Source of the DNA: Neobacillus sp. PS3-34
GTDB taxonomy: Bacteria > Bacillota > Bacilli > Bacillales > Cytobacillaceae
Assembly: GCF_030915465.1 (NCBI RefSeq)
Contig: NZ_CP133267.1
Coordinates: 868,001 to 932,000, forward strand
Reading direction: 5' to 3'
DNA: 64,000 nt
Shown: one piece after another, positions 3,667 through 46,722 of the stretch
Layout of the letters: the number at the start of each line of letters is the position of its first letter
Position numbering within the stretch: the first letter of the stretch is position 1
Notes under the pieces: generated by a model
What the model was told of the DNA's origin: nothing
The model's database searches: none
What the model saw: the letters and a program-made list of their open reading frames with translations, nothing else
Made by a program: the position numbers and the translations under genes

Positions 3667-4127
3667 ATGAAGGACATTTTTCCTGTTTACCTGAATGGTT
3701 CTGTCCTTCATAGGGCTTATGAAAGACATTTTCCCACTTCACCTGCGAGGTTTTGTCCTTCATGAAGCTGATGAAGGACATTTTTACTCTTCATCTGTCT
3801 GGTTTTGTCCATAAGAGCCATTTTATCAGACATTCTCACCGATCTTGCGTGGGATTTTGTCCAATAAAATCCTCTTATTGGACATTTTAAACGGTCTTAT
3901 GCCCGGTTTTGTCCAATAGAACCCTCTTATTGGACATTTTAAACGGTCTTATGCCACGTTTTGTCTAATAGAACCCTCTTATTAGACATTTTCACCGGTC
4001 TTATGCCACGTTTTGTCTAATAGAACCCTCTTATTAGACATTTTAATCGCTCATGTGTCCGATTTTGTCCATCATAATCCTTTTATTGGACACTTTCATC
4101 TGTCACTAGCATCATTTTGTCCTTCAT
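3667..4127. repeat. Array 1: nine units of a 52-bp palindromic tandem repeat
   Basis: The base G of the motif GACA recurs at 3673, 3725, 3777, 3829, 3881, 3933, 3985, 4037 and 4089: an exact 52-bp period. Each unit is a left arm of 10 nt ending GACA, a 25-nt spacer with T-rich 5' end and usually GGTTT/CGTTT at its 3' end, a right arm beginning TGTC, and a 7-nt linker. The right arm of one unit pairs with the left arm of the next: TGTCCAATA/TATTGGACA, TGTCTAATA/TATTAGACA and TGTCCTTCAT/ATGAAGGACA, so arm changes are compensated. Outer units carry the CTTCAT arms and inner units the AATA arms. No open frame or promoter was recognised in it. Confidence 0.92.
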
Positions 4128-4177
4128 ACGTGGGTGACAAAAAACACCAAAAAGCCGAAACATCCTTTTTTCAACAA

Positions 4178-4210
4178 GAAAAAATGACGTATGCCATTCC
4201 ATACGTCATT
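4178..4210 (-). terminator. Intrinsic terminator of the sip-rbgA transcript
   Basis: AATGACGTATG (minus strand) pairs perfectly with CATACGTCATT round a 6-nt loop and is followed by TTTTTTC. It lies about 50 bp after the rbgA stop, so array 1 is downstream of the terminator. Confidence 0.85.
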
Positions 4211-4260
4211 ACAATGTCATTTAATTAATTATTAAGACTCTCAATATAGAAGCTAATTTC

Positions 4261-5137
4261 CTAATCCTGCTCTTTATGGTCCTCGCCGGCAAAGTCTTCT
4301 GGTTTTTCAAAAGAAAGTGGTCCAAATTTTTCTGTTCTGATTTCCCTAATTACAAGCTCTGCGGTTTTGTCGTAGTCGACCATTCCTCCGCCCATCAGAC
4401 AGCCTCTGAGCGTACCTACATGGTCGAATAACTCGACAACATCCTCAGGGACCTGTTCGAACTTGTAACGCTCCTTAAAGCGTTCAGGATACTCTCTTTC
4501 AAGAAAACGGAGCGAGAACAGGGCCAGGTCCTGTAAATTCAATAAAGTATCTTTGATAGCTCCTGTTACAGCTAACTTCCTTCCTACTTCCTGGTCTTCG
4601 AATTTCGGCCATAAAATTCCGGGAGTATCCAGCAATTCAAGTTCTTTGCCTACTTTAATCCATTGCTGTGCTTTCGTCACACCTGGAGTATTTCCGGTTT
4701 TCGCGATGTTCTTTTTTGCAAGGCGATTAATTAGCGTTGATTTCCCTGCGTTGGGTATTCCAACAATCATCGCCCTGATTGCTCTAGGGTTTACACCTTT
4801 AGCCCTTAGGCGGTCGAATTTTTCTTTAAGGATTTCATGCGAGGCCTGAACGATGTCCCTCATTCCGACACCTTCGTGGGCATTGATCGCCAGGCTTTAC
4901 CCCTTTGGCAGCGAAAAAGCGGATCCATTCCTTGGTCACTTCTTTATCGGCCATATCTGCTTTATTTAACAGCACCAGCCTGGGTTTATGCTGAATGATT
5001 TCGTCAATCATGGGATTGCGAGAAGAGTACGGTATCCTCGCATCCACCAATTCAAAAATAATATCGACGAGTTTCAGTTTTTCCGTGACCTCTCTGCGAG
5101 CCTTGGCGATATGGCCTGGAAACCATTGGATCGTCAA
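4261..5137 (-). CDS. rbgA: Ribosome biogenesis GTPase A, frameshifted
   Basis: Circularly permuted GTPase needed for late 50S subunit assembly. The first part ([22 protein letters not shown], then [10 protein letters not shown], the G4 motif) and the second ([20 protein letters not shown], the P-loop; [13 protein letters not shown]3) are in different frames. The break is at 4892-4897: GTAAAGCCTGG is read where GTAAAGGCCCTGG gives [13 protein letters not shown], two bases missing at a GGCC. Corrected length is about 292 residues. I prefer the TTG start at 5137 (MTIQWF...) because AGGAGG lies 8 nt upstream; the GTG at 5146 overlaps that site. It follows sip by 21 nt. Confidence 0.95.
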
Positions 5138-5158
5138 AGCAGCCACCTCCTAAAATAT

Positions 5159-5719
5159 CTATTTGATTTTTACGATTCGCGCGTCTGAAAGTGGCCAGTA
5201 AACGACACTGGTTTTCCCCAGAATCTTGCTCAATGGGACAGTTCCAATATGGCGGCTGTCTTTACTGAAGCGCCTGTTGTCTCCCATTACAAACAATTCT
5301 CCTTCAGGCACTGTATCACGCCCAACAGCAGTTTCCTTCAATGTAAACGCATCTGTTAACGGCCCATCGATAACCTTTTTCTTGAATTCATCCAAGTATG
5401 GTTCTTTATATGCTTTCCCATTAACATAAAGAGTATCATTTTTATACTCGATACGGTCACCCGGAAGGCCGATGACCCTTTTTATGTAATCCTTACCTTC
5501 AGGAGCATGGAATACAATGATATCAAACCGTTTAGGTTTGCCAATTTCATAGCTTAACTTATTTACTATCATTCTGTCCTGATCATGCAATGTAGGAGTC
5601 ATGGAAAGGCCATCAACTACAATTGGAGCAAAAAGAAAATACCTGATTACTGCTGCCAATATTACAGCAATTACTAACGCCTTTGTCCATTCCCAAACTT
5701 CGTTTTTCTTTTTTGTCAT
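5159..5719 (-). CDS. Type I signal peptidase
   Basis: Membrane-anchored serine protease that removes signal peptides from exported proteins. 186 residues: one N-terminal membrane segment (ALVIAVILAAVIRYFLFAPI), then the catalytic serine in GLSMTPTL, the catalytic lysine in DYIKRVIGLPGD, and the C-terminal GDNRRFSKDSR box. It is a SipS/SipT/LepB-type enzyme; which paralogue cannot be told. In B. subtilis no such gene lies between rplS and rbgA as I recall, though other bacilli have it here. The rplS terminator precedes it, so it should have its own promoter in 5720-5870, which I could not define. Confidence 0.96.
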   Translation of the reverse strand: MTKKKNEVWEWTKALVIAVILAAVIRYFLFAPIVVDGLSMTPTLHDQDRMIVNKLSYEIGKPKRFDIIVFHAPEGKDYIKRVIGLPGDRIEYKNDTLYVNGKAYKEPYLDEFKKKVIDGPLTDAFTLKETAVGRDTVPEGELFVMGDNRRFSKDSRHIGTVPLSKILGKTSVVYWPLSDARIVKIK

Positions 5720-5871
5720 TACGTGTTCCCCACCAATCTCACCAAATAAATGTTTACTTCACTTTATTTTACATAACTGACGCATAATAAACACGAGGGG
5801 ATGTACTTTTTTAATCAAACTTTAATAATTTGGTTTTTTCAGGAAACGATTTAAGGCTAAAGATTTGTATG

Positions 5872-5900
5872 AAAAAAGAGCTTGCAGAGCAAGCTCTTTT
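5872..5900 (-). terminator. Intrinsic terminator of rplS
   Basis: AAAAGAGCTTGC and GCAAGCTCTTTT form a perfect 12-bp stem with a 3-nt loop, followed by more T residues on the minus strand, 10 bp after the rplS stop. Confidence 0.93.
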
Positions 5901-5909
5901 GCATTCATA

Positions 5910-6257
5910 TTAGCGACGAATCTCTTTAATACGAGCTTTTTTACCACGTAGGTTACGTAGGTAGTAAAGTTTCGCACGACGGACTTTACCGCGGCGGATT
6001 ACTTCAAGCTTCGCAATTTTTGGTGTGTGAACAGGGAATGTACGCTCAACGCCTACTCCGTAAGAAACTTTACGTACTGTAAAAGTTTCACTGATTCCAC
6101 CACCACGACGCTTAATCACTACGCCTTCAAACAACTGAATACGTTCGCGAGTACCCTCGATAACTTTAACGTGTACACGTACAGTGTCTCCAGGACGGAA
6201 CGAAGGAAGATCAGTGCGAAGTTGTTCTTTTGTGATTTCTTGAATTAATTGTTGCAT
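5910..6257 (-). CDS. rplS: 50S ribosomal protein L19
   Basis: Binds at the 30S-50S interface. The start at 6257 gives [20 protein letters not shown] and 115 residues, the normal size; the frame is open further upstream but only as leader. Typical segments [40 protein letters not shown] and the C-terminal [18 protein letters not shown] are intact. A ribosome site (GGGAGGAG) precedes the ATG. It has its own promoter after trmD and a strong terminator, so it can be expressed apart from the upstream genes. Confidence 0.97.
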
Positions 6258-6352
6258 CGTTTTCAACTCCTCCCAACAGACGCTCATGCACTCGTTCATT
6301 GCAGCGGAACATCGTTATAAGACCGGCCTGATTTAATATCAGCGCAAGTCAC
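6258..6352 (-). promoter_or_regulatory. Candidate L19 leader RNA
   Basis: The roughly 95-nt leader between the promoter and rplS contains short self-complementary stretches (CTGAT/ATCAG, TGCA-rich repeats). Firmicute rplS genes commonly carry a structured autoregulatory L19 leader in this place. I infer it from position and partial structure; the covariance model was not tested. Confidence 0.4.
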
Positions 6353-6359
6353 AAGAAGT

Positions 6360-6388
6360 ATCTTACCATAAACGACTGGTCCGTGCAA
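6360..6388 (-). promoter_or_regulatory. SigA-type promoter of rplS
   Basis: TTGCAC (6383-6388), 17-base spacer, TAAGAT (6360-6365) on the minus strand, directly after the trmD stop. Confidence 0.8.
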
Positions 6389-6391
6389 TAA

Positions 6392-7135
6392 CTACTTATA
6401 TTCTTTTTTTATTTCTTCCAGCCATTTTGTTTGTTCGGCCGTAAGCACTATTTTTTCGAACAGGTCTGGACGGCGAAGAAAAGTCCTCCGAAGTGATTCC
6501 TTTGTGCGCCATTCCTCTACCAATTTATGATTTCCTGACAACAGGATATCAGGCACCTTCATTCCGCGAAAATCGGCTGGTCTTGTATAATGGGGATGCT
6601 CCAGCATTCCGGTGCTGAAGGAATCCTTCATGTGGGATTCTTCATTTCCTAAAACCTCCGGCAAGAGGCGGACAACACTATCGATTACGACCATCGCACC
6701 CAATTCTCCACCTGTAAGCACATAATCTCCAATCGAGATTTCGTCCGTAACTAAATGCTCTCGTATTCGCTCATCATAGCCTTCGTAATGCCCGCAAATG
6801 AATAAAAGATGCTCTTCCTTTGCAAGTTCTTCAGCCTTTGCCTGAGAAAACCGTTCACCCTGTGGACACATGAGAACAACCCGTGTTTTGGATTTAGAGG
6901 ACTCCTTGCTCAAAGCCGCAACCGCATCAAAAATGGGCTGAGGCTTCAGGACCATTCCTGCCCCGCCTCCATACGGATAATCGTCTACCGTATTGTGCTT
7001 GTTATCGGCATAATCGCGAAAATTAACAACATTGTAATGAACTGCCTCTTTTTCTTCAGCCTTTTTTAGGATGGAATGTCCAAACACACCTTCAAACATT
7101 TCAGGAAAAAGTGTGAGCACATCGATTTTCATCAT
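6392..7135 (-). CDS. trmD: tRNA (guanine-N1-)-methyltransferase
   Basis: Methylates G37 of tRNAs to prevent frameshifting, using SAM bound in a trefoil-knot fold. 247 residues with [20 protein letters not shown], the substrate-loop region [26 protein letters not shown] and [18 protein letters not shown]. The first ATG (7135) overlaps the rimM stop, with AAGGA 8 nt upstream; a second ATG follows at once. It is translated in the rpsP-khpA-ylqD-rimM-trmD series. Confidence 0.97.
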
Positions 7136-7650
7136 GATAATAATCCTTCGATAGGTTCGATGGTTACCAATTTTTCGTTGATATCCACTTTAAGCACAAC
7201 ATCTTCAATATATGGAATCAGAATCTCTTTTCCCTTATCGCCCTTGATCACCCAAACATCGTTGGCACCAGGTGTGAGGATTTCTTTAATTGTTCCAAGC
7301 TCCTCACCTGCTACCGTTACAACCGAGCAGCCAATGATTTCATGAAAGTAATATTCATTTTCCTTAAGCTTACCGAGCTGAGATTCTGGCACTTTAAGGA
7401 TGCCATCTCTGAACTTTTCAACCATATTGATATTATCGTATCCTTCAAACGTCAATAAATCAAAGTTCTTATGGCTGCGGTGGCTTTTCACCTTCAACTC
7501 GATCGGAGCTTCTGCTTTCGGTAAAAACAACGTCAGGATATTGCCGACTTTATATCGTTCCTTCGGAAAATCTGTTTTTGAAATAACTCGCACTTCGCCT
7601 CTTAATCCGTGGGTATTGACAATTTTCCCTACATTAAACCATTTCTCCAT
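7132..7650 (-). CDS. rimM: Ribosome maturation factor RimM
   Basis: Assists maturation of the 30S head and binds S19. 172 residues from the ATG at 7650 ([20 protein letters not shown]); upstream codons in frame are leader. N-terminal RimM domain followed by a PRC-barrel ([20 protein letters not shown], then [23 protein letters not shown]). The stop overlaps the trmD start, so the two are translationally coupled, as in B. subtilis. Confidence 0.96.
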
Positions 7651-7664
7651 TTTGCTACTCACCT

Positions 7665-8051
7665 CTAACGTATTTCTTGGATAATTCCATCCTTAATGAC
7701 AATCACTGGCTGGCTCGCTGGATCGCCCCATGCATCCCCTACACTCACATCTATGATGGCCTGTACTTCTTTTTCTTTAAGCTCGCTCCCTAATGGTAGC
7801 ATATGTAATTGGCTGATTTGAAACTCAAGCAGCTTTTCTTTTTCCCGCCTGATGGACATTTCTTTTTCAAATTGAGGTTTAATCTCGCCCGGCTGAAATC
7901 TTTTTGATTTCTCGAGCCGTTTGGCTTCAAACTGAAGCTGTTCATATTCCTTTTGCAGCTGCAGCATTTGGTCATTATATTTATCAAGCAATTTCTGCCT
8001 GCTTTGTTCAGTTAAAATTTGTTTCACCACAACATTTTGAAGTATTTTCAT
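7665..8051 (-). CDS. ylqD: YlqD-family protein of unknown function
   Basis: 128 residues, starting [19 protein letters not shown] with GGAG 8 nt before the ATG at 8051. The middle (residues about 20-90) is a charged coiled coil rich in Glu, Lys and Gln; the C-terminus ([27 protein letters not shown]) looks like a small beta domain. Equivalent genes occupy this place in other bacilli. I know no established function; its setting suggests a role with ribosome maturation. A terminator lies between it and khpA. Confidence 0.88.
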
Positions 8052-8113
8052 CATAGTTTCTCCATGTTCCATTTTCTTTGTACGGATTCACTGAAAAAAT
8101 AAAAAAAGCTAGC

Positions 8114-8143
8114 AAAAAGAGGGGGATATTCCCCCTCTTTTTT
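8114..8143 (-). terminator. Hairpin terminator between khpA and ylqD
   Basis: AAAAAGAGGGGGA pairs perfectly with TCCCCCTCTTTTT round a 3-nt loop; the symmetry gives T-tracts on both strands. It would attenuate rpsP-khpA transcription before ylqD-rimM-trmD. Confidence 0.9.
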
Positions 8144-8153
8144 ACAGTACAGC

Positions 8154-8384
8154 TTATTCGCCGATTTCTAAAAAAATCTTCTTCTGTTGTGATGATCCTG
8201 CTGCATAGACAACGGTTCGTATTGCCTTTGCAACGCGCCCCTGCTTTCCAATCACCTTACCCATGTCACTCTTGTTGACAGAAAGCTTATAGGTTACGCG
8301 TTGATCCTCTTCCACGACATTAACATGTACATCTTCCGGAAAATCAACAAGGGGCTTAACAATCGTTTCGATGAGCTGTTTCAT
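8154..8384 (-). CDS. khpA: KH-domain RNA-binding protein KhpA
   Basis: 76 residues of a single KH domain with the GKVIGKQGRVAKAIRTVV loop (GXXG type). In Firmicutes KhpA partners KhpB (Jag/EloR) to bind RNA and influence cell wall synthesis and division. It starts 11 nt after the rpsP stop and shares its promoter. The old name is ylqC. Confidence 0.95.
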   Translation of the reverse strand: MKQLIETIVKPLVDFPEDVHVNVVEEDQRVTYKLSVNKSDMGKVIGKQGRVAKAIRTVVYAAGSSQQKKIFLEIGE

Positions 8385-8395
8385 TTCAGTTGATA

Positions 8396-8668
8396 TTACT
8401 TGCCAAGTTTAGCATTATGGAATTTTTCCATGATGCCTTCTTTAGAGAACAAGTTGCGTACTGTGTCAGATGGTTTAGCGCCATCCTTAAGCCACTTAAG
8501 AACAAGTTCTTCGTTAAGATTAACAGCTGCAGGTTGAGCAACCGGATTGTAAGTTCCTACAACTTCGATGTAACGTCCGTCACGAGGAGAACGAGAATCT
8601 GCTACTACAATACGATAGAAAGGGGATTTTTTAGCTCCCATACGTTTTAAACGAATTTTAACTGCCAT
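8396..8668 (-). CDS. rpsP: 30S ribosomal protein S16
   Basis: 90 residues, [20 protein letters not shown], with the conserved [20 protein letters not shown] segment. The ATG at 8668 follows GGAGGTG; ten upstream codons open in frame are leader. It heads the rpsP-khpA stretch behind a strong promoter. Confidence 0.97.
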
Positions 8669-8708
8669 TTTAAATAAGCACCTCCGAATATGTTTCACAC
8701 AAGATAGA

Positions 8709-8737
8709 ATATTATCAAAAAGTAAAAGGTTTGTAAA
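8709..8737 (-). promoter_or_regulatory. SigA-type promoter of rpsP
   Basis: TTTACA (8732-8737), 17-base spacer, TAATAT (8709-8714) on the minus strand, 40 bp upstream of the rpsP start in the gap after ffh. Confidence 0.85.
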
Positions 8738-8767
8738 GTGTTTTTTCTTTACAGACGATTTTTTTGT

Positions 8768-10120
8768 TTAAAAAGGGTTGAATGGCAGCTTAAAGCCGCC
8801 TTTTTTCTTGCCTTTTTGCTGCATGCCTGTCATTTGCTTCATCATTTTTTTCATATCTTCAAACTGCTTCAGCAAACGGTTTACCTCAGGAACAGTTCGA
8901 CCGCTCCCTTTGGCAATCCTCTTTTTGCGATTGGCATTGATAATTTCAGGCTGGTTTTTTTCCGCTGTCGTCATCGATTGGATAATCGCTTCGACATGGG
9001 CAATTTGTTTTTCGTCGATTTGAAGATTGTTTAACCCCTTGATTTTGTTTGCACCTGGCATCATTTTCAAAAGCTCGTCAAGAGGCGCCAATTTCCGAAC
9101 CTGTCCAAGCTGATCCAAAAAGTCTTCAAGCGTGAAAGTGGCAGTCCGCATTTTTTGTTCAAGCTCTTTTGCTTTCTCCTCATCCACATTCGCCTGTGCT
9201 TTTTCGATCAATGTCAGCACGTCACCCATACCAAGGATTCGTGACGCCATCCTCTCTGGATGGAACGGTTCGATTGCATCCATTTTTTCACCAAGACCTA
9301 CAAACTTAATAGGAGTTTGGGTTACAGCGCGAATCGAAAGTGCCGCACCGCCGCGTGTATCGCCATCGAGCTTAGTTAAAACAACTCCGGTAAGTCCGAG
9401 CTGTTCATTGAAGCTTTGAGCAACATTCACGGCATCCTGCCCGGTCATCGCATCAACGACAAGGAATATTTCATCGGGCTTTGTCAGCTCTTTGATGTCT
9501 TTTAACTCATCCATCAATGATTCGTCTACATGAAGACGCCCGGCTGTATCAATAAGCACATAATCATGATGTTCTTCCTTCGCTTTTGCAATCGCCTGTT
9601 TTGCAATTTCAACCGGGCTTACTTGGTCTCCTAGTGAAAAAACAGGCATACTTAGCTGCTTGCCAAGCGTTTCGAGCTGCTTGATTGCAGCAGGGCGATA
9701 GATATCGGCAGCAGCAAGGAGCGGTTTCCGATTATACTTCTTGCGAAGCAAATTTGCCAGCTTCCCAGTGGTTGTCGTTTTACCGGCACCCTGAAGACCT
9801 ACCATCATAATGACAGTTGGAGGCCGGTTTGAAACAGCAATCTTGCTCTGTTCGCCACCCATAAGCTCAGTCAGTTCATCATTAACAATCTTGATAATCT
9901 GCTGTCCTGGAGTTAAGCTTTTCAGGACCTCCTGGCCTACGGCACGCTCGCTTACTTTCTTAACAAAGTCTTTTACAACCTTGAAGTTTACGTCGGCTTC
10001 CAGAAGGGCAAGGCGAACTTCCCTCATCATTTCTTTAACATCCGCTTCATTTACTTTCCCTTTTCCGCGGATTTTTTGAATCGTACTCTGCAGTCGGTCG
10101 GCTAATCCTTCAAATGCCAT
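8768..10120 (-). CDS. ffh: Signal recognition particle GTPase Ffh
   Basis: Binds signal sequences and 4.5S/scRNA and targets ribosomes to the membrane with FtsY. 450 residues: N domain (LQSTIQKIRGKGKVNEADVK), G domain with GLQGAGKTTTTGKLA, the insertion-box region DIYRPAAIKQL, DTAGRLH and TKLDGDTRGGA, then a methionine-rich M domain ending KKGGFKLPFNPF. It follows ylxM by 11 nt. Confidence 0.98.
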   Translation of the reverse strand: MAFEGLADRLQSTIQKIRGKGKVNEADVKEMMREVRLALLEADVNFKVVKDFVKKVSERAVGQEVLKSLTPGQQIIKIVNDELTELMGGEQSKIAVSNRPPTVIMMVGLQGAGKTTTTGKLANLLRKKYNRKPLLAAADIYRPAAIKQLETLGKQLSMPVFSLGDQVSPVEIAKQAIAKAKEEHHDYVLIDTAGRLHVDESLMDELKDIKELTKPDEIFLVVDAMTGQDAVNVAQSFNEQLGLTGVVLTKLDGDTRGGAALSIRAVTQTPIKFVGLGEKMDAIEPFHPERMASRILGMGDVLTLIEKAQANVDEEKAKELEQKMRTATFTLEDFLDQLGQVRKLAPLDELLKMMPGANKIKGLNNLQIDEKQIAHVEAIIQSMTTAEKNQPEIINANRKKRIAKGSGRTVPEVNRLLKQFEDMKKMMKQMTGMQQKGKKKGGFKLPFNPF

Positions 10121-10131
10121 CCTGCCGCCTC

Positions 10132-10470
10132 CTAATCTAATTTCTCCAGCTCGGCAACTGCATTGAGCAGTACCTGCTTGGAAGGGATTTCTTCATTCAA
10201 TAATTCTTTCATTTTGGTTAAAAGGGTGCTGCGCTCTTGAAACTTTTGAAACAATAGCAGCTTCTCCTCGTACTCCTCAAGCATTGCTTCTGTACGCTTA
10301 ATATTATCATAAACTGCCTGGCGGCTGACATCGTATTCTTCAGCAATTTCCCCAAGAGAATAGTCATCCAAATAATAGAGAGACATATAGCTTTGCTGCT
10401 TCGGTGTTAACAACGATTGGTAAAAATCATAGAGAAAGTTTATTCTCGTTGTCTTTTCAAGCATGCTCAT
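10132..10470 (-). CDS. ylxM: YlxM, helix-turn-helix SRP-associated protein
   Basis: 112 residues of the UPF0122 family. Residues about 20-60 ([41 protein letters not shown]) form a sigma-70 region-4-like helix-turn-helix. Always found next to ffh in Firmicutes; work in streptococci links it to SRP function. It has its own strong promoter (10505-10533), separating it from ftsY. Confidence 0.93.
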
Positions 10471-10504
10471 CCCTCCTTGTTAAGTGAAAAGCCTTTACAT
10501 TGCT

Positions 10505-10533
10505 AGTTTACACAGCGGGCTTTGCCCTGTCAA
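10505..10533 (-). promoter_or_regulatory. SigA-type promoter of ylxM-ffh
   Basis: TTGACA (10528-10533), 17-base spacer, TAAACT (10505-10510). The spacer itself contains GGGC-AAA-GCCC, a short inverted repeat centred between the two boxes. Confidence 0.85.
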
Positions 10534-10570
10534 TGAATTACGCAACAGACAGACTACTAAAAAATGAAAA

Positions 10571-11553
10571 CTATTCGCTTTCAATCTGGTCTGCGAATAG
10601 ACCGTAAACGTATTTTTCAGCGTCAAATTCCTGAAGGTCATCCATCTTTTCGCCAAGCCCTACAAATTTGACCGGAATCCTTTGTTCGTTTCTGATCGCC
10701 AGGACAATCCCGCCTTTTGCTGTTCCATCCAGCTTCGACAAAACAATCCCCGAGACATCCGTAACTTCCTTAAACGTTTTTGCTTGTATAAGCGCATTTT
10801 GTCCCGTTGTCGCATCAAGAACAAGCAGGACTTCATGCGGAGCGCCTGGTATTTCACGTTCAATAACCCTTTTTACTTTTTCCAGTTCTTTCATTAAATT
10901 GACTTTATTTTGAAGCCTGCCCGCTGTGTCACATAATAAAATATCTGCTTTTCGGGATTTAGCAGCCTGAATGGCATCGAACATTACTGCGGCAGGGTCT
11001 GATCCCTCGGCCTGCTTAATCACTTCCACCCCAACCCGGTCTCCCCAAACCTCAAGCTGTTCGATCGCTCCAGCCCGGAACGTATCACCTGCAGCCATAA
11101 GAACGGTTTTGCCTTCACTTTTAAACTTATGTCCCAGCTTGCCGATCGTCGTCGTTTTACCGACGCCGTTTACACCTACAAATAAGATGACTGTCAACGC
11201 ATTTTCCTGAAGGTTCAGCTTGGAGGATTGCTCTTCTCCCCCATTGTAAATATCGACTAGCTTTTCAGAAATGACACTTTGCACTTCCTGCGGATCTTGG
11301 ATATTCCGGCGCTTGACCTCCATTTTAAGCTCGTCAATCAGCTTCATAACCGTATCAAAACCCACATCTGCCTGAATCAGGATTTCTTCCAATTCTTCAA
11401 AAAAGTCTTCATCTACTTTACGGTATCTGGCAACCAGATCGTTCATTTTTCCAGAAAAGCTGTTACGGGTCTTTGTAAGGCCTCTTTAAATTTTTCGGAT
11501 ACACTATCCGTTTGCTTTGTGATTTTTTCTTTTAATTTTTTAAAAAAGCTCAT
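10571..11553 (-). CDS. ftsY: SRP receptor FtsY, frameshifted in its N-terminal helix
   Basis: Membrane-associated receptor GTPase for Ffh. Corrected length 327 residues: [20 protein letters not shown] at the start (ATG 11553), then after the break [58 protein letters not shown] and [10 protein letters not shown]. The break is at about 11482-11486, where GAGGCCTT is read and GAGGGCCTT restores [11 protein letters not shown]: one G lost at GGGCC. Without this the first frame ends after 35 codons. It follows smc by 17 nt. Confidence 0.96.
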
Positions 11554-11570
11554 ATGCCCACTTCCTTAAC

Positions 11571-14500: not shown

Positions 14501-15136
14501 GGCAATCGATGCCTGGATTTTCAAGGGTTCCACCTGTCCTTCAAGCTCGTGAAGAATATCCTGGACACGGTTGAGGTTTTCCTGGGTCTCTGTCAGTTTC
14601 ACTTCTGCTTTTTTCTTGCGGTTTTTATATTTTAAAACACCTGCCGCTTCTTCAAAAATGGTCCTGCGGTCCTCTGCCTTACTATTTAAAATTTCTTCCA
14701 CTTTTCCCTGACTGATGATAGAAAAAGCTTCTCTGCCAAGTCCGGAATCCATAAATAGATCAATAATATCCTTCAGCCTGCATTGCTGTTTATTGATGAG
14801 GAATTCACTTTCGCCTGAACGATAAACCCTTCTTGTCACACTTACTTCGTTGTAGTCAATCGCAAGACCTTGATCCTCATTGTCGAGGGTAAGCGTCACT
14901 TCTGCAATATTTAGCGGTTTTCGTGAATCGCTTCCTGCAAAAATGATGTCTTCCATTTTTGTACCTCTCAGCGATTTAGCCGACTGTTCCCCTAGTACCC
15001 AGCGGATTGCATCAATTATATTGCTTTTCCCGCTGCCATTGGGACCGACTACGGCTGTCACACCTGGTACAAACTCAACACCAATTCGTTCCGCGAAGGA
15101 TTTGAAACCAATGACATCCAACCGTTTTAAATACAT
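11571..15136 (-). CDS. smc: Chromosome partition protein Smc, frameshifted in the first coiled-coil arm
   Basis: Condensin ATPase that organises and segregates the chromosome with ScpA/ScpB. Corrected length 1188 residues, the normal size. N-terminal head with GPNGSGKSN (residues 31-39) and ALDYNEVSVTRRVY-type region; long coiled coil; hinge around GYLEGAVAELLQV/GGALQHVVVD and the GDIVNPGGSMTGG segment; second arm; C-terminal head with LLSGGERALTAIALLF signature and PVPFCILDEVEAALDEANV Walker B. The frame breaks at 13953-13957, where GCAGGCGCAAAAAATG is read and an extra C (GGCC) gives QAAKNELKYIGQQLEQQ. It follows rnc closely. Confidence 0.97.
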
Positions 15137-15177
15137 GTATTTTCCTCCTTAGGCGGGCTGGCATCATACTCTTTATG

Positions 15178-15922: not shown

Positions 15923-15953
15923 CGTATTTCCACCCAGCTTTCTAGTAGAGCGC

Positions 15954-15998: not shown

Positions 15999-16015
15999 CC
16001 CTTCTATAATACAGA

Positions 16016-16045
16016 AGAAAGCCCCGTTTGAAAACGGAGCTTTGC
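16016..16045 (-). terminator. Terminator of acpP
   Basis: AAAGCTCCGTTT and AAACGGGGCTTT pair round two bases on the minus strand with T-rich sequence after, 15 bp past the acpP stop. It makes rnc depend on readthrough or its own start. Confidence 0.8.
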
Positions 16046-34328: not shown

Positions 34329-34329
34329 T

Positions 34330-35274: not shown

Positions 35275-35756
35275 TCCTTTTCCAACCCTTCCAACTCTTC
35301 TTCAGTCAAATATTTTGTCACTTTTGTGGTAAACAAAATACCGGATAGATGATCTATTTCATGCTGGATTGCCCTTGCCAGAAAATCCTCTGCTTCCAAA
35401 GTATACTTTCTTCCTTTTCTGTCAAAGGCTTCAATCTTCACATAAAACGGCCTTGTCACTTCACCATATACGCCGGGAAAACTTAAACAGCCTTCCGGGC
35501 CGGTCTGTTCTCCTGAAGTTTCGATAATTCTCGGATTAATCATTTCAATTGTTCCGTGTTCATCATCGACATCGACGATGGCAATTTGCGAATCAATTCC
35601 AATCTGAGGTGCCGCAATACCGACCCCATCAAATTCAATCATTGTATCATACATATCATTTAATATCTTCACAAGCTTTTTATCAAAAACCTCTACCTGC
35701 TTACAATCCTGTTCAAGAATTTCTGCAGGATAAGTTACAATTTTTCGTATAGACAA
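35271..35756 (-). CDS. def: Peptide deformylase
   Basis: Removes the N-formyl group from new proteins. 161 residues with the three metal-site motifs [18 protein letters not shown] and QHEIDHLSG. It sits between priA and fmt. Confidence 0.98.
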
Positions 35757-35812
35757 AGCTGCTCCTCCATTTATTCTTTACTTTTTATAATTTATAAAAC
35801 AAAAATACAAGT

Positions 35813-38220: not shown

Positions 38221-39423
38221 TTCTTCTGTTCCTTTAAAAGAGAAGAAATTTCTTCAATAATTTTTCGGGCAACTTTTTGCTTCGTCATCAACGGGAGATT
38301 TTCAGGCGATCCATTTCTTTTAAATAACGTCACAATATTCGTTTCCGTTCCAAAGCCTGCACCTTCCTGCTGAACATTGTTTGCAACGATCATATCTGCA
38401 TTTTTGGATTCCAGCTTCCTTCTGGCATATTCTTCAACATTCTCTGTCTCAGCTGCAAAGCCGACAAGTATTTGTGTGGCTTTCTTTTTTCCAAGCTCGG
38501 ACAGAATATCTGTTGTTCTCTCAAGTTCAAGAACACTATCGCCCGCCTGCTTTTTGACCTTATGCTCATAAGCGGTTTTAGGGCGGTAATCAGCAACTGC
38601 TGCTGTCTTAACGACTACATCTGCCCTATCATAATAAGCCAGCACAGCCTGATGCATTTCCGCTGCACTTTCTACTTTTACCAGTTCAATGCCTGCAGGT
38701 GCATTTATCGAGACTGGCCCTGAAATGAGAACCACATTTGCACCGGCCTTTTGGCTTCCTCTGCAATTGCATAGCCCATTTTTCCGGTTGAGTGATTGGA
38801 GATAAAACGGACAGGATCAATTTTTTCACGCGTTGGACCAGCTGTGATAACAACTGTTTTTCCTTCCAGCTCCCCTGTACCTCCCTGGAAAAATCGTACC
38901 GCAAGTTCCACGATATTTTCCGGTTCCTCGAGGCGCCCCTTCCCGACATAACCACAAGCAAGATATCCTTCTCCAGGTTCAATGAATTGATAACCATATT
39001 CAAACAATGTGGCAATGTTTTTTTTCACTGCCGGATGGTCATACATATGGACATTCATAGCGGGAGCAATCCAAACTGGTGCGGTCGCGGCCAGCAAGGT
39101 AGTTGTAATCATATTATCAGCAAAGCCATTTGCAAGCTTGGCAATGGTATTCGCTGTAGCTGGTGCTACCAGGATCAAATCTGCCCAATCAGCCAAATCA
39201 ATATGAGCAATCACCTCGGGATTTTTTTCTTCAAAGGTGTCTGTAAAAACCTCATTTCGTGATAGAGCCTGAAATGTCAGAGGTGTTACAAACTTTGCCG
39301 CCGACTCGCTTAAAATGACCTTGACTTGGGCCCTGTCTGGACCAGTTTACTGGTTAATGCTGCTGCTTTATATACTGCTATTCCGCCCGTGACACAAAGT
39401 AATATCCTTTTTCCATTTATCAT
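38217..39423 (-). CDS. coaBC: CoaBC: phosphopantothenoylcysteine decarboxylase/synthase, two frameshifts
   Basis: Two steps of coenzyme A synthesis. N-terminal flavoprotein domain ([50 protein letters not shown]), and CTP-dependent synthase domain ([32 protein letters not shown]). Breaks: 39328-39333, GGGCCC read where GGGGCCC gives [12 protein letters not shown]; and 38745-38752, AAAAGGCC read where AAAAAGGCC gives [14 protein letters not shown]. Corrected length 402 residues. Confidence 0.96.
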
Positions 39424-39539
39424 TTACGATACACCCGACTTTCTATATCTCCAGTAACTTCTTTACTCCATTATGCTGGAACACTGTCCATTTTTCATCT
39501 TTTTTACACCTGAATCCATCAAAGAAAAAACTCACCTAA

Positions 39540-39585
39540 AAATAAAAAAGTCCGACTCATAAGGAAAATACCTCTGGTGTCAGAC
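39540..39585 (-). terminator. Terminator after rpoZ
   Basis: GTCTGAC and GTCGGAC pair (one G-U) with a 22-nt loop on the minus strand, followed by TTTTTTATTTTT. It separates gmk-rpoZ from coaBC. I see nothing else in the 244-bp gap. Confidence 0.65.
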
Positions 39586-39667
39586 CCTGCTCAATTTTAT
39601 CTTATTACAGATTGAAAAGCGTTTAGCGTATTAAAAATCGTAATTCACCTGAATGAAAAATTTAGTT

Positions 39668-39886
39668 TTACTCAGCTGAACCGTCTGTCTTTTTGGCGAT
39701 TCTGTATGTCAGCTGGCCGCCATAGATTTCTTCAAGCGCTTTACCGACAAATTTATGAGAAACATACTTTTCCATCTGTGGGTTTGCAACTATCTGCATA
39801 GCGCGTGCCCTTTTTGCCGCAACAGATACAAGGGAATACTTGGAATCAATTTTTTCAAGAAGTGAATCAATAGAAGGATATAACAT
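39668..39886 (-). CDS. rpoZ: RNA polymerase omega subunit
   Basis: 72 residues, [20 protein letters not shown], with AAKRARAMQ and the conserved [17 protein letters not shown]. Assists assembly of the beta-prime subunit. Two bases after gmk. Confidence 0.97.
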
Positions 39887-39888
39887 GC

Positions 39889-40778
<890 letters not shown>

Positions 40779-40835
40779 GGTGTTCCCCCATCATCAATAA
40801 TTTATTTTTGCCGTGTGTGTCTTTTTCTAAACACG

Positions 40836-41711
40836 TCATTCAATATTCTGAATCTGCTCTTTCATTTTTTCAAGCAAACTTTTAATTTCAACAACATCTC
40901 TTGCGATAATGGAATCGTTCGCTTTTGAGCCTATTGTATTAGCCTCCCTATTCATCTCCTGAACAAGAAAATCCAATTTACGCCCTATCGGATTATTTTC
41001 GATTAAGATATTAAAAAATTGCTGGATATGGCTGTTCAGCCTGATCAATTCCTCGTTGATATCCGCTTTTTCCGAAAAGACCGCCACTTCTGTCAGGATT
41101 CTTGCTTCATCAGCCTGGCCATTAAGAAATTCCTGCATTCTTCTCGTCAATCTCTCTTTATATTGTTGAACAACAGAAGGTGCGTGCTTTCGCAAACTAT
41201 TTACAAATGCTTCGAGCTGATGCAAATGTGAGGTAATGTCTTTTACAAGCTCAATCCCTTCATCCTGCCTCATTTTCGTTAGGTGGCAAGCCGCATCTTC
41301 AGCAGCTGCCAGAACTGCATTTTCAAGCTCATCATCAGAGCCTTCTGTCTCTTCAATATGTATTAAATCTTCACGGTTTATCAATTCTTGTAAGGTAATG
41401 GTTCCTTCAATTCCGTATTTTAACTGAGCTTTTTTAATAAATTGGTAATATTCCTCTATTAAGTCCCATTCCACACGAAGCTGGCGGCTGACAGCACCTT
41501 CACCCTCTACAGTGATGAAAACCTCCACTCTCCCACGCCGGATATAGGCACCAAGTATCTTTTTTATTTTCTCTTCCACTTTAAGGAGCTGCCGCGGCAT
41601 TCGAATATGATATTCGCAAAATCGGTGATTAACCGTTTTAATTTCAACATGGACAGTAAAAGAACCACTTTCTGTTTTACTTCTTCCAAAACCCGTCATG
41701 CTAACTGCCAT
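40836..41711 (-). CDS. yloC: YicC-family endoribonuclease-like protein
   Basis: 291 residues starting MAVSMTGFGRSKTESGSFTV, with KTVNHRFCEYHIRMPRQL and a C-terminal GRKLDFLVQEMNREANTIGSK block that defines the YicC/YloC family. Members have been shown to be RNases in some species. The ATG at 41711 is preferred; six upstream codons are leader. It leads the remA-gmk-rpoZ group. Confidence 0.93.
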   Translation of the reverse strand: MAVSMTGFGRSKTESGSFTVHVEIKTVNHRFCEYHIRMPRQLLKVEEKIKKILGAYIRRGRVEVFITVEGEGAVSRQLRVEWDLIEEYYQFIKKAQLKYGIEGTITLQELINREDLIHIEETEGSDDELENAVLAAAEDAACHLTKMRQDEGIELVKDITSHLHQLEAFVNSLRKHAPSVVQQYKERLTRRMQEFLNGQADEARILTEVAVFSEKADINEELIRLNSHIQQFFNILIENNPIGRKLDFLVQEMNREANTIGSKANDSIIARDVVEIKSLLEKMKEQIQNIE

Positions 41712-41757
41712 CAAACACACATCCTTCAATAAAAAAGAAATCAGTTTTTTCCTGATA

Positions 41758-41794
41758 ACAACAAAAGGTAATAGAGTCTTCTCTACTACCTTTT
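41758..41794 (-). terminator. Terminator of the P-type ATPase gene
   Basis: AAAAGGTA(g)TAGAG and CTCTA(t)TACCTTTT pair round 4 nt on the minus strand, followed by G-T-rich sequence. Confidence 0.8.
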
Positions 41795-41809
41795 GGATTA
41801 TAACATACT

Positions 41810-44489
41810 TTATTTTGTTTTTCTTGCCAAAAATGATCCTGCCAATAAAAAAGTTGGTATTGATGATAAGCCAAGGATCAGCAGCCAGTCTCTTCCTGCG
41901 ATAGGCAGGGTATGGAATATAGGCTGCAATGGCGGATAATAGATAACAACAAGCAGCAATGCCAAGGATGAAATAACGGACCAGACAAGGTATGGATTGC
42001 CAAAAGGATTCCTTGAAAGCACAGATTTTTCACTGCGGCAGTCAAAAACATGGATCAGCTGGGCCATTACCAATGCAGCAAAAGCCACAGTCTGTGCGTA
42101 TTGAAGCCGTTCTGGCTGATTATTATACACAATGATAAACGCCAATAGTGTCACTATCCCTATCAAAAAGCCCCTAGAAACAACTTTCCAGCCTAATCCC
42201 CTGGCGAAAACTCCTTCCTTGGAGCTTCGCGGTTTTCGTTTCATTACATTTTCCTCAGGGCGGTCAAGCCCCAATGCCATGGCAGGCAGTCCATCAGTCA
42301 CCAGGTTTACCCACAGGATCTGTATCGGTAAGAGCGGTAACGGCAATGCAAGAATCATTGCAAATAACATAACCAGAATCTCACCAACATTGGAGGCAAG
42401 CAAGTAACGGATAAATTTACGGATATTTTCGTAAATATTCCGCCCCTCGGTTATTGCTGATTTGATCGTCGCAAAATTGTCATCGAGCAGCACGAGAGCA
42501 GAGGCTTCCTTGGCAACATCCGTTCCCGTAATTCCCATCGCTACACCAATATCAGCAGCTTTTATTGCCGGAGCATCATTGACACCGTCTCCGGTCATTG
42601 CTACAACGTGACCTCTATTTTGGAGCGCCTTTACAATTTTAAGCTTGTGTTCAGGAGAAACCCTCGCGAACACGGATACATCATCTACAATATTTTCGAG
42701 TTCTTCGACCGACATTTCTGAGAGTGCTTTTCCATCAACAACCTTGCTTTTATTAGTCAGAATACCCAGCTGTCTGGCAATCGCCTTGGCAGTAATAACA
42801 TGGTCACCGGTAATCATAACTGTCTTGATGCCTGCTTCTCGGCATTCTTTTACCGCATTTCTCACTTCAGGGCGAGGAGGGTCAATCATTCCCTGGACAC
42901 CAATGAATGTCAAATCCATTTCCGCTTCCTGCTCGCTTAATATTAACGTATTGGAAGGTACCTGCTTAAAAGCGATTGCAATCGTTCTTAAAGCATTTGA
43001 TGCCAGCCCGTCAATGGCTTCCTGCACCCTTGTTTTTACCTCGCCGACTAAAAATTGATTTTTCCCATCCCAGAGAATCGACTTACTTATTCCGATTAAG
43101 ACATCCGGCGCCCCTTTTGTAACGATAAAATGGCGCCCCTCTCGATCTTTAACCAGAACACTCATCATTTTTCGGGTGGAATCAAACGGGAACTCATTTA
43201 CAATCTCGAACTCTGTTAAAAGCCTGTTACGGTCATACCCTGCCTTCATAGCACTGACAAGGAGCGCACCTTCGGTTGGATCTCCGTCAAGAATGACTTC
43301 TTCATTTCTATAAGACAATTCGGAATGATTGCAAAGCATGCCAAACATCAGCATTTGCTGTAATGCTTTTTCTTCCCTTGGCATAACCGTTTTTCCTTCT
43401 TTGTAAAAAACGCCCTTAGGCTCATAGCCTACGCCGTCAACTGTCCATAAGTTGCCGCCGCTCCACAAATGGGTAACCGTCATCTTATTCTGAGTCATCG
43501 TTCCTGTTTTATCAGAGCAGATGACCGATGCACATCCAAGTGTTTCAACTGCAGGAAGTTTTCTAACAATAGCATTTTTCTTAATCATCTTTTGAACACC
43601 CAGTGACAGTGCTACGGTCACAATCTGCCGGAAGCCCCTCAGGAATAGCTGCTACCGCAAGCGAAACCCCAGCTAAAAACATTGTATAGATATCATTACC
43701 CTGCATAACTCCAATCCCAACTACCAGGAATGTTAACAACAGGGCAGCTGTAATTAATATTTTGCCAAGCTGCTCCAGCCGATGCTGCAAAGGAGTAGTG
43801 GCTGTTTCCGCATTTTGGAGCAAATCAGCAATTTGTCCCATTGCCGTTTTCATTCCCGTTCCTACTGCCACACCCACTCCGCTGCCACGTGTAACCATTG
43901 TGCCCATAAAGGCGATGTTTTCCATATCGCCTATACCTGGATTTTCAGTTTTTAATGGATCTGTATGCTTGGAAACGGGCAAGGATTCTCCCGTGAGTGC
44001 TGATTCTTCAATTTCAAGGCTTCTGGCTTCTATAAGGCGGACATCCGCACCAATCCGGTCCCCGCTTGCAAACTTTAGGATATCCCCAAGGGCAATCTCC
44101 TTTGAAGGAATTTTAAGCCATTTTCCTTCCCTTAGAACATGTACCTGCGGTGCTGACAATTCCTTTAAAGCCTGAAGTGATTTCTCCGCTTTTCTCTCCT
44201 GAAAAAAACCGAGAAATCCATTGATCAGGACAATCGCTATTATCGCTATAGCATCAATGTACTCCCCTAATAGTCCTGAAATTAATGTTGCAGCAAGAAG
44301 GACAAGAACCATGAAGTCCTTAAACTGGCTAAAAAATAAGAGCAAAGCCGATTGCTTTTCTCCTTCAGCCAATTCATTATATCCATGCTGCTGAATTCGT
44401 TTCTGCGCCTCTTCCAGCGTCAATCCAGACGAAAAGTCCGTATTCAAAGATTTTTCTGCCTCGTTTACATCCATTTCATGGAACTTCAT
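41810..44489 (-). CDS. yloB: Calcium-transporting P-type ATPase, frameshifted
   Basis: P-IIA type pump, 892 residues after correction. N-terminal cation ATPase domain, DSALTGES-type actuator region (ESALTGESLPVSKHT), AGVSLAVAAIPEGLPA in the membrane, phosphorylation site CSDKTGTMTQNKMT, MTGDGVNDAPAIKAAD, and C-terminal membrane helices. The frame breaks at 43624-43627: CCGGCAGATTG is read and CCGGCCATTG gives EGLPAIVTVALSLG (GGCC misread as GGCAG, net +1). Starts divergently from rqcH. Confidence 0.95.
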
Positions 44490-44548
44490 CCGGCCATCTC
44501 ACTTCCCCCTTAATCACACAAAAAGTGCATATCTTCTAAGTAAGCTTA

Positions 44549-44577
44549 TTCAGCCTCGTCCCAAAAAATGCTATGAT
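44549..44577 (+). promoter_or_regulatory. Candidate rqcH promoter
   Basis: TTCAGC (44549-44554), 17-base spacer, TATGAT (44572-44577), 105 bp before rqcH in the divergent gap. Confidence 0.55.
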
Positions 44578-44682
44578 ATAGTATCGTTCTTCGAAAAGAT
44601 AAGAAAGAATATGAGACAGTCCGCATTTTAAAAGGATATACTAATAATAGATATTAATGATTGATAGAAAAGGATGTTTGCC

Positions 44683-46391
44683 ATGTCATTTGATGGTCTT
44701 TTTACAAAAGCAATGGCCGATGAGCTGTCACATTCGTTAAAAGGCGGCCGTATTAATAAAATTTATCAGCCATATAAAAATGAAATCATACTAACAATCC
44801 GGGCTAATGGAGTTAACCATAAACTGTTGCTGTCTGCCCATCCGAGCTATGCTCGGGCACAGCTAACGAAAGAATCGCATGATAATCCGAGCGAGCCGCC
44901 AATGTTCTGTATGCTTCTCAGAAAGCACCTTGAAGGCTATATCGTCGAAGATTTACACCAGGTAGAAGTTGACAGGATTTTGATTATTGAGGTCAAAGGA
45001 CGGAATGAATTAGGCGATATCAGCTATAAACAGCTAATTGTAGAAATTATGGGGCGCCACAGCAATATCATTCTTGTTGATAAAAACCGGAATATTATCT
45101 TGGACAGCATCAAGCATGTATCGTATGCACTAAATACACACCGCGCCATCCTGCCTGGCCAGGCCTATATTTCTCCGCCTGAACAAAATAAACTCAATCC
45201 ATTTAAAGCCGATGAGCAGGATGTGTTAAGGCTGCTGGATTTTAACAGTGGTAAGGTTGATAAACAGCTTGTAGAGCATTTTGCAGGTGTGTCCCCACTG
45301 TTCGCTAAAGAAGTTCTTTTTAAAAGCGGGCTTGCGAATAGGACAACCGTTCCTGCAACTTTTATTGAGATGATCCAAAGCATTGGAAAAGGTGAAATTC
45401 AGCCGGCAATAACGTCTGCAAATAATAAGGAGAATTTCTACCTCCTGCCACTTCAGCATTTAAAAGGCGAAAGTAAAAGCTTTCCGTCGTTAAGCGAGAT
45501 GCTCGACCGCTTTTACTTTGGTAAAGCTGAACGGGACCGGGTTAAACAACAATCGTCTGACCTTGAGCGCTTCATCGTGAACGAAAAGGAAAAGAATGAG
45601 AAAAAAATCGAAAAACTACAAAAAACCTTATTGGAGGCCGAAAAGGCTGATGAGTTCCAACGGTACGGAGAGCTGCTGACAGCCAATCTGTATGCTGCAA
45701 AAAAAGGGATGAAGGAAATTGAGGTTATCAATTACTATGATGAAGAGGGACAGACGATTAGCATTCCTCTTGATCCGCTAAAGTCACCGTCTGATAATGC
45801 TCAGAAATATTTCTCAAGATACCAAAAGGCGAAAAATTCTGTGGCAATTGTGGTCGAGCAGATTGAGAAGGCACGGGATGAAGCTGCTTACTTTGATAGC
45901 TTATATCAACAGGTTCATGCTGCTTCTCCAAAGGATATCGAAGAAATCCGCGAAGAATTGGTTGAAGGCGGATATATCCGTTTAAGGCAAAAAAAGAACG
46001 CAAAAAAAGCTTCCAATGCGAAGCCTGTTCTCGATCATTATATGTCCACTGATGGAACTGAAATTATTGTCGGTAAAAATAACAAGCAAAATGATTATTT
46101 AACGAACAAGCTCGCAGCAAGGGATGAGATTTGGCTTCATACAAAGGATATTCCTGGTTCCCATGTTGTTATCCGCAGCAAGGAGCCTACTGAGGACACA
46201 ATTAAGGAAGCAGCAATGCTCGCCGCGTATTTCAGCAAGGCCGAGAGTCCAGCTCCGTCCCTGTCGATTTTACAAAGGTTCGCTTCGTGAAAAAACCAAA
46301 CGGCGCAAAACCAGGATTTGTGATTTACGATAACCAGCAGACCGTGTATGTTACACCTGATGAAGAAATGGTCCTTGCGTTGAAGAAATAA
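44683..46391 (+). CDS. rqcH: Ribosome quality control factor RqcH (NEMF/Rqc2 homologue), frameshifted
   Basis: Adds alanine tails to stalled nascent chains on 50S subunits. About 569 residues: NFACT-N domain ([32 protein letters not shown]), helix-hairpin-helix, long coiled coil (residues about 290-430) and NFACT-R domain ([20 protein letters not shown]). The ATG at 44683 ([11 protein letters not shown]) is favoured by AAAGGA 8 nt upstream. The frame breaks at 46239-46242: AAGGCCGAGAG is read and AAGGGCCGAGAG gives [16 protein letters not shown]; the tail then ends at 46391. Confidence 0.95.
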
Positions 46392-46400
46392 CAGTGGATA

Positions 46401-46722
46401 TGGCCTTCATGACACCGCTGAAGACCAAAACCACCCTTTTGAACAGTGGAATCGGTCTTCATGTCACCGATGAAAACCAAAACCACCCTTTTAAACAGTG
46501 GAAATGGTCTTCATGAGACAGATGAAGACCAAAACCACCCTTTTGAACAGCGGAAACGGTCTTCATGTAACCGATGAAGACCAAAGCCTCTCTTTTGAAC
46601 AGTGGAAATGGGCTTCATGAGACAGATGAAGACTAAAACCACCCTTATGAACAGTGGAAATGGGCTTCATGGCACCGATGAAGACCAAAGCCTCTCTTTT
46701 GAACAGTTGAAATGGTCTTCAT
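46401..46722. repeat. Array 2: six units of a 52-bp palindromic tandem repeat
   Basis: The motif GAAGACC (with variants) begins at 46420, 46472, 46524, 46576, 46628 and 46680: an exact 52-bp period, plus a partial unit before the first. GGTCTTCAT and ATGAAGACC pair across a 7-nt linker. Linkers alternate between CACCG- and GACAG-type, and the spacer alternates ACCACCC/GCCTCTC in the last four units, so a 104-bp dimer was itself duplicated. On the minus strand the spacer (TTTCCACTG...GGTGGTTT) resembles that of array 1. It fills the convergent gap between rqcH and pyrE; no gene is present. Confidence 0.92.

Follow-up and report, generated by a model that had tools for sequence, protein, structure and literature searches.

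Two tandem arrays of a 52-bp unit built around an inverted repeat lie in a 64,000-nucleotide stretch of the Neobacillus sp. PS3-34 genome (contig NZ_CP133267.1, positions 868,001 to 932,000; this whole stretch is the window below, and its own coordinates are used). The genome is G000 in our numbering, in which other genomes carry G-codes and loci L-codes. Array 1 (3666-4131, sense strand minus) comprises about nine units between ylqF/rbgA and rnhB, and array 2 (46390-46727, sense strand plus) about 6.5 units that begin at the likely stop codon of an rqcH-like gene and face pyrE. Tandem Repeats Finder (TRF) assigned period 52 to positions 3666-3810, 3855-4096 and 46390-46722, and the self-match at lag 52 reached 0.73 in array 1 and 0.81 in array 2, against only 0.31-0.34 at lags 51 and 53. 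Hairpins with 10-nt arms around a 7-nt centre (10-7-10) and 9 or 10 Watson-Crick pairs occur at 3702, 3754, 3858, 3910, 3962 and 4014 in array 1 and at 46505, 46557 and 46661 in array 2, and the whole window holds 15 hairpins of such quality, 9 of them inside the arrays. The dyad is perfect at 3754-3780 (TTCAT arm type), at 3858-3884 (AATA arm type, carried by several inner units of array 1) and, in array 2, at 46505-46531. Both ends of array 1 are half-dyads, ATGAAGGACA at 3667 and TGTCCTTCAT at 4119, and array 2 is a diverged member of the family with TGGTC arms in the variants TGGTCTTCAT and ATGAAGACCA. These results confirm the plan of 10-nt arm, 7-nt centre, 10-nt arm and 25-nt spacer that a first-pass annotation had proposed for both arrays. 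A likeness of their spacers, also proposed there, proved partial only; a T-run and a TG..CA dyad plan are common to the units of both arrays once these are aligned in one orientation.

The two arrays share one orientation relative to the gene ending nearby (ylqF/rbgA on the minus strand, rqcH on the plus strand), as the annotation had said, and their placement on opposite strands, to which it had drawn attention, is true of this pair but not special, the upstream gene on the sense strand reading toward the array at 28 of 31 sites in this genome. The ribosome biogenesis GTPase gene ylqF/rbgA (4261-5146, minus) falls into two frames, 4261-4863 and 4835-5146, whose translations were searched apart, and its intrinsic terminator (-14.1 kcal/mol, minus strand, locus L045) stands between gene and array 1 at approximately 4182-4210. 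The annotated ribonuclease HII gene rnhB (2388-3170, minus; L045:1789-2571) occupies the far side. The rqcH-like gene (44674-46290, plus) matched the NCBIfam EfbA and RqcH models, both under their curated cut-offs, and its frame ends about 100 nt short of array 2; this early stop and the split ylqF/rbgA frame are probably the product of indels in a noisy assembly. Convergent with rqcH is the orotate phosphoribosyltransferase gene pyrE (46785-47435, minus; L046:3486-4136), and a hairpin between it and array 2 (46738-46781), recognised by reading alone where terminator calling gave none, is possibly the terminator of this convergent pair. At gathering threshold Rfam has no match over the window arrays; the ordinary Rfam elements of the window are a T-box leader (63312-63557), two PyrR-binding leaders (57767-57871 and 58425-58542) and an L19 leader (6277-6315). 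A G+C-rich stretch at about 3285-3480, before array 1, looks by eye like a separate dispersed Bacillus repeat, and the 122-125-bp tandem repeats of L093 and L100 resemble it in type, again by eye.

The first-pass annotation treated the two arrays as members of one dispersed repeat family with a 52-bp step, a view that would fall if no further arrays existed or if others had unrelated periods, and it suggested scanning the genome for the dyad pattern. The scan returned 143 matches, against 8 for the reversed pattern; more arrays exist, their period is 52, and the family is supported both in PS3-34 and in other genomes of the order. A covariance model from 30 PS3-34 units (R1, E <= 0.01) gave 155 matches at 31 or more sites in this genome, and the 31 sites fetched all carry units, from 1 to about 19 each. 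Their density is uneven, with none at 3.01-4.29 Mb and 22 of the 31 in 4.68-1.34 Mb, across the contig ends. With this loose threshold R1 matched 36 of 61 relatives, 21 of them with at least 10 and 13 with at least 50 matches; G013 had 50, yet a single match at 1e-5 to R2, a broader model made from 69 units of five genomes. Of 397 genomes from the order, 67 had R2 matches at E <= 0.001, and these 67 fall in 34 of 135 genera; 42 have at least five matches and several have one. In a phylum-wide sample of 398 genomes R2 matched only G000, one member of its family and one borderline case. Presence is patchy, the Neobacillus genomes having 155 (G000), 66, 20 (G003) and 1 (G001) R1 matches; the G003 matches are weak, with several at intervals of about 145 bp (for example C31:24077-24417 and C10:92872-93215), and they may belong to a different tandem repeat.

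Period 52 was found by TRF in loci from six families (f1, f6, f14, f22, f42 and f47). Among 80 named rqcH loci R1 gave two weak matches, and the family proper is thus not demonstrated here in any named species. Searches of plasmids with two arrays as queries and of phages with one array gave no BLAST match with the low-complexity filter on, a weak test for so variable a family, and Rfam with a relaxed E-value on five loci gave chance-level matches far below threshold. Searches of the open-licence literature aimed at the family, and others on polar sequences, brought up no paper whose listing describes it, though absence there is no proof. Arrays evidently break assemblies, for three of eight sampled G014 contigs end inside one.

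On the sense strand the unit reads AAAn-TGTCC-N5-(AAGGnnT)-N5-GGACA-AAAC followed by a purine-leaning spacer (10 + 7 + 10 + 25 = 52 bp), and the consensus of 69 units retains AAAn-TGTCC...GGACA-AAAC. The pitch is strikingly uniform: across 129 arrays, some of them orthologous, with 760 units, neighbouring units 40-64 bp apart are spaced by exactly 52 bp in 569 of 606 cases and by 51-53 bp in 591; among the rare exceptions, which are small in number, five measure 42-43 bp (one turn less) and two fall in 44-49 bp. Within arrays the mean difference between units is 0.07 in the arms and 0.20 both in the middle spacer and in the 7-bp centre, where AAGG is favoured, and the arms vary less than the spacers inside 40 of 44 arrays (p 4e-8). 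When arrays of the same genome are compared, 0.51-0.68 of the middle-spacer positions differ, where composition alone predicts about 0.61 (G041) to 0.71 (G000), whereas the arms differ by 0.00 in G041, 0.03 in G014, 0.15 in G018 and 0.25 in G000. Spacers are thus strongly diverged, yet not wholly unrelated; their length is better kept than their sequence, and the arms are kept as sequence. A few arm types recur across five genomes, and lineages differ in them (TTCAT, ATCAT, AATA, GATAG, TTTAA and others). The likeness of spacers inside one array sets the family apart from clustered regularly interspaced short palindromic repeats (CRISPR), whose spacers are unrelated. Whole arrays may conceivably be inverted-repeat elements: 54 of 76 arrays begin with a right half-arm (p 0.0008) and 45 of 76 finish with a left one (p 0.21), and in the 33 arrays with both, orthologues included, complementarity exceeds that of shuffled sequences for the end arms (p 0.0005) and for the outer flanks (p 0.001).

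The arrays sit at the 3' ends of genes, often beyond the terminator. With genes called by a home-made hexamer finder, the gaps of the 76 arrays for which both neighbours were called are co-directional with the array in the sense direction in 43 cases and antisense in 5 (p 1.4e-8), convergent in 25 and divergent in 3, whereas the 115 gaps of 150 nt or more that lack an array in those loci comprise 62 co-directional, 9 convergent and 44 divergent ones. L187, L201 and L202 were excluded from the arrays of the terminator, end-arm and gap analyses, but the pooled gap counts still include L201 (the divergent case) and L202 (the antisense case, with two head-to-head arrays); the strand of L191 was set wrongly by default in one locus set. 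The L202 pair, at 2462-3487 of that G248 locus, consists of two 52-bp arrays of different arm types. Terminator calling was offered 83 arrays, 68 of which lie no more than 450 nt downstream of a sense gene. For 24 of these 68 an intrinsic terminator separates the stop codon from the array, and for 7 it follows the array (shuffled controls 0/59 and 0/64); 25 of the 68 arrays begin within 60 nt of the stop codon. A replacement of terminators by arrays left no sign, terminators being found before or after the array at 29 of 68 array ends and, among control gene ends, at 20 of the 77 co-directional ones and 10 of the 20 convergent ones. In G248 and G275, which belong to different families, an array of a different arm type in each follows the apparent eno terminator. 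Other recurring annotated neighbours in 137 loci are LytR/CpsA/Psr-type genes (G041, G200), pyridoxine/hydroxymethylpyrimidine-kinase genes (G275, G014) and nfo (G317), and the largest recurrent neighbour groups look like common paralogue families.

This 3' location and sense orientation, together with the closeness of many arrays to a stop codon, would suit a transcribed 3'-end RNA whose tandem hairpins and purine-rich linkers protect, terminate or tether transcripts. Three units folded as RNA at -10.3 to -13.6 kcal/mol, on either strand, and the arms covary: for 7 of the 10 pairs, one or more of the 30 PS3-34 units have both partners changed, and among 69 units from five genomes 110 cells show both-side changes against a mean of 40 in shuffles. 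The mismatches in the stem, with the strand of complete-genome loci set to the leading one, nevertheless show no clear strand preference. Counted by array, pairs 1-9 have 97 G-U and 81 A-C array-positions (p 0.26) and pair 10 has 12 and 27. Counted by unit, where units of one array are not independent, the sense-strand ratio of G-U to A-C is 104:48 at pair 5 and 60:40 at pair 6, a lean that an RNA would predict, and 39:100 at pair 10. On balance, the paired arm changes and the lack of a clear strand preference are easier to reconcile with a two-fold symmetric site in double-stranded DNA than with a single strand that folds. An RNA would moreover need no linker of a constant 25 nt, the terminators found mostly precede the array, no Rfam model matches, and the sense strand is the leading one even at convergent and divergent sites (below); we regard a transcribed function as quite unlikely. 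The first-pass annotation had offered phased DNA sites for a cooperative protein and a transcribed hairpin array as alternatives, and because the pitch is stricter than the spacer sequence, mismatches show no clear strand preference and the terminators found mostly stand before the array, the former fits better and the latter less well, the cooperative protein itself being putative.

The orientation of the arrays mostly follows replication. In five single-contig genomes (G151, G275, G317, G030 and G200) the sense strand is the leading strand in 62 of 62 scored arrays among the matches listed. Of 282 genes in the vicinity of these arrays, 224 (79%) are on the leading strand. The 62 comprise 58 scored by motif count together with L189, L198 and L233 (no TRF row, model strand) and L253 (local skew); the motif-count ties L245 and L254 were resolved to leading by the model strand (56 before), for four further ties default and model both give the leading strand, and the second array in L187 lies outside this scoring. 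For G030, whose start reads N, the origin was placed by skew and the direction of genes. At 60 of the 62 loci local GC skew supports the leading strand taken from the half-way point, the other two being L241, with near-zero skew, and L253, just past half-way. At the 20 convergent and 5 divergent sites, which favour neither strand by their genes, the sense strand is leading in all 25. The arrays are evenly spread along the replichore (Kolmogorov-Smirnov test of the 62 against uniform, p 0.52), with no rise toward the terminus. G248 lends weak support, 10 of its 11 arrays running with replication if the origin lies near 1.4 Mb; its skew is weak and irregular, and its head-to-head pair was left unscored. 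In PS3-34, 25 of 31 arrays run with replication and 28 of 31 with the upstream gene; of its exceptions, L039 and L044 are ambiguous in their own direction, and in L040, L046 and L055 the AAAC flank is still present, on the other strand, which points to an element with a direction of its own.

Replication polarity, covariation and the asymmetric centre would also be expected of single-stranded DNA hairpins that form on the lagging-strand template, here the sense strand, and that a protein specific for hairpins, for instance a primosome or recombination factor, recognises at the fork. The fixed 52-bp pitch is left unexplained by such hairpins, and that strand has no overall preference for G-T over A-C; we consider this account very unlikely.

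Arrays change in length by whole units. At four orthologous sites of G041 and G151, where the aligned stretches are 91-95% identical, the copy numbers are 8.3/5.3, 2.9/4.9, 8.8/6.8 and 5.8/6.8. At the rqcH site, three congeners (G001, G002 and G003) gave no tandem array, and in G001 the next gene comes immediately after the rqcH terminator. Whole-unit changes in copy number and the arm-centre-arm geometry recall core-type sites of a tyrosine recombinase, with two arms around a 7-bp overlap, directly repeated so that recombination would alter their number; archaeal dif sites are described as having 11-bp arms and a 6-bp centre (PMC5357621). An overlap should however be constant; the centre varies within arrays as much as the spacer does (0.20), but with a preference for AAGG, and unequal homologous exchange explains the copy numbers equally well. 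We consider recombination sites a highly improbable explanation.

A selfish or neutral satellite deserves more weight. A palindrome that spreads to tolerated intergenic sites, beyond terminators and clear of promoters, and is resized by slippage or unequal crossing-over, its orientation set by a stability that depends on orientation or by an insertion route through the lagging-strand template, would account for the patchy presence, the array missing at rqcH in the three congeners, the unit-wise copy change at the G041/G151 sites, the homogeneity of arrays and the avoidance of divergent gaps. Hard to obtain without selection, though, is a period of 52 in six families despite strongly diverged spacers, and this constancy of pitch weakens a functionless satellite. 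Nor does the family correlate with Y1 (IS200/REP-type) transposase genes over 61 genomes (Spearman 0.11, p 0.41): G006 has 90 R1 matches and no PF01797 match, and G000 has one PF01797 match. The lack of plasmid or phage matches, though a weak test, and the arrays with different arms after eno in two families also speak against it. We judge the satellite a possible but somewhat unlikely explanation.

Some named Bacillaceae have tandem arrays beside rqcH that are unrelated to the family in sequence. Cytobacillus purgationiresistens has nearly the same plan with other arms: period 51, arms AGATGAGAAT and ATTCTTATCT with one G-T pair, centre GCGGGGG, 10-7-10-24. In C. praedii a period of 52 accompanies a weaker dyad of plan 9-7-9, with centre AGAGGGG and 8 of 9 pairs formed, which may be chance, the dyad search having tried centre lengths from 3 to 29. 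The arrays of Lederbergia citri and Bacillus sp. IITD106 combine a period of 51 with arms of 13-14 bp, and several Neobacillus have period 21/42. The loci with unrelated 51/52-bp arrays beside rqcH in named species are L084, L097, L112, L118, L120 and L095: the arm-7-arm plan with a G-rich centre is clear in one and weak in another, two have longer arms, and L095 and L112 lack such a dyad. Intergenic arrays of period 20-21 (or 40-42) and unrelated sequence occur in several genomes, 3' of rqcH in L066, L071, L074, L077 and L091 and elsewhere in L189, L197 and L206, and in L197 and L206 such two-turn arrays share the locus with a 52-bp array. Most rqcH-side periods in this small sample are near 2 or 5 helix turns; 122, 125 and 334 also occur.

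Comparison with known systems places the family near several of them. Repetitive extragenic palindromic (REP) sequences and bacterial interspersed mosaic elements (BIME) are described as GTAG- and CGTC-tagged short extragenic palindromes in many copies, sometimes tandem, with hypothesised roles in supercoiling, termination and mRNA stability; the same source names bcr1 among Bacillus repeats (PMC3733652). The 52-bp arrays likewise are short extragenic palindromes in many, sometimes tandem, copies near gene 3' ends, and they avoid promoter regions, as the divergent gaps attest (3/76 vs 44/115). REP elements also sit near gene 3' ends. The family differs in having no GTAG/CGTC foot in its consensus, in its fixed tandem pitch, in its replication polarity and in the lack of a link, over the 61 genomes, to the REP-associated tyrosine transposases (Y1, RAYT). 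As an intergenic Bacillus repeat it resembles bcr1, which is of the miniature inverted-repeat transposable element type, larger, and not known to form a 52-bp tandem array.

Architecture imparting sequences (AIMS), FtsK orienting polar sequences (KOPS) and SpoIIIE recognition sequences (SRS) are polar and biased to the leading strand (PMC5993296, PMC5357621), with a bias of up to 85% for SRS (PMC5357621). Our arrays share the leading-strand bias of AIMS and SRS, in the five genomes scored as in PS3-34, but consist of a 52-bp tandem dyad instead of an 8-mer, and their density is flat along the replichore. The SRS octamer is GAGAAGGG. An SRS in the unit centre is unsupported, with exact GAGAAGGG present in 0 of 397 units, although matches with one mismatch are enriched (46 of 397 units against 12 of 425 shuffled units). 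In Bacillus subtilis the replication terminator protein (RTP) and its Ter sites form polar, protein-bound dyads in the chromosome; the 52-bp arrays are likewise polar dyads in a Bacillus-type chromosome, protein binding being a feature of RTP/Ter, but they are spread over the whole of it. The RTP family (PF02334) has no match in G000, G002, G014, G018, G041 or G030 and exceeds its cut-off in 8 of the 61 genomes, including G009 with 56 R1 matches.

The reading that we tentatively favour, at rather less than an even chance, is that the arrays are helically phased, polar sites in duplex DNA for a putative dimeric protein. Each 52-bp unit would be a double-stranded site of two 10-bp half-sites (TGTCC-N5/N5-GGACA) around an asymmetric 7-bp centre (AAGGnnT), bound by a sequence-specific dimer. 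As 52 bp make five turns of 10.4 bp, all dyads would come to lie on one face of the helix, within reach of contacts between bound dimers. The array takes its direction from the asymmetric centre and the AAAC flank; this direction is that of replication in most genomes examined and more nearly that of the adjoining gene in PS3-34. The arrays, growing and shrinking by whole units, stand at the edges of transcription units, often past the terminator or between convergent genes. The 10-7-10-24 plan with unrelated arms in C. purgationiresistens also favours this reading. Protein binding, its dimeric state and the cooperation of neighbours we infer from this arrangement, and chromosome organisation, for example as a topological boundary with polarity where transcribed regions end, is our best guess at a function.

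Several observations weigh against phased sites for a protein. The protein is putative, and the several arm types that coexist in G000 and G018 would call for several specificities. The unit-level mismatch counts at individual pairs lean one way or the other rather than being balanced. Six of the 31 arrays of PS3-34 run against replication, array 2 of the window among them, which follows its gene, and the purine excess of the leading strand may add to the apparent polarity, much of the asymmetry being purine content. Presence is patchy even within the genus, from 1 match in G001 to 155 in G000, and the rqcH site of the three congeners yielded no tandem array. Shared descent may explain part of the constant pitch, the spacers being somewhat more alike than composition predicts, and the orthologues among the 129 arrays make the counts overstate independence.

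A wider, decidedly more speculative proposal, which we hold to be unlikely, is that of a Bacillales-wide polar positioning code: some 5-30 phased arrays per genome at the ends of transcription units, pointing with replication, would serve as loading sites on which the putative dimer forms one-sided filaments and thereby marks a direction for the organisation or segregation of the chromosome; arm sequences would co-evolve with this protein, against an unchanging pitch, centre and plan. In summary, the repeat occurs in many families of a single order; its pitch is exactly five turns, and in the scored genomes its co-orientation with replication is nearly complete. If no protein reads the arrays, they would be a clean natural case of a polar, phased bacterial satellite; if one does, it would be a new player in the chromosome biology of the Bacillales, and the arrays would be a ready ligand for finding it.

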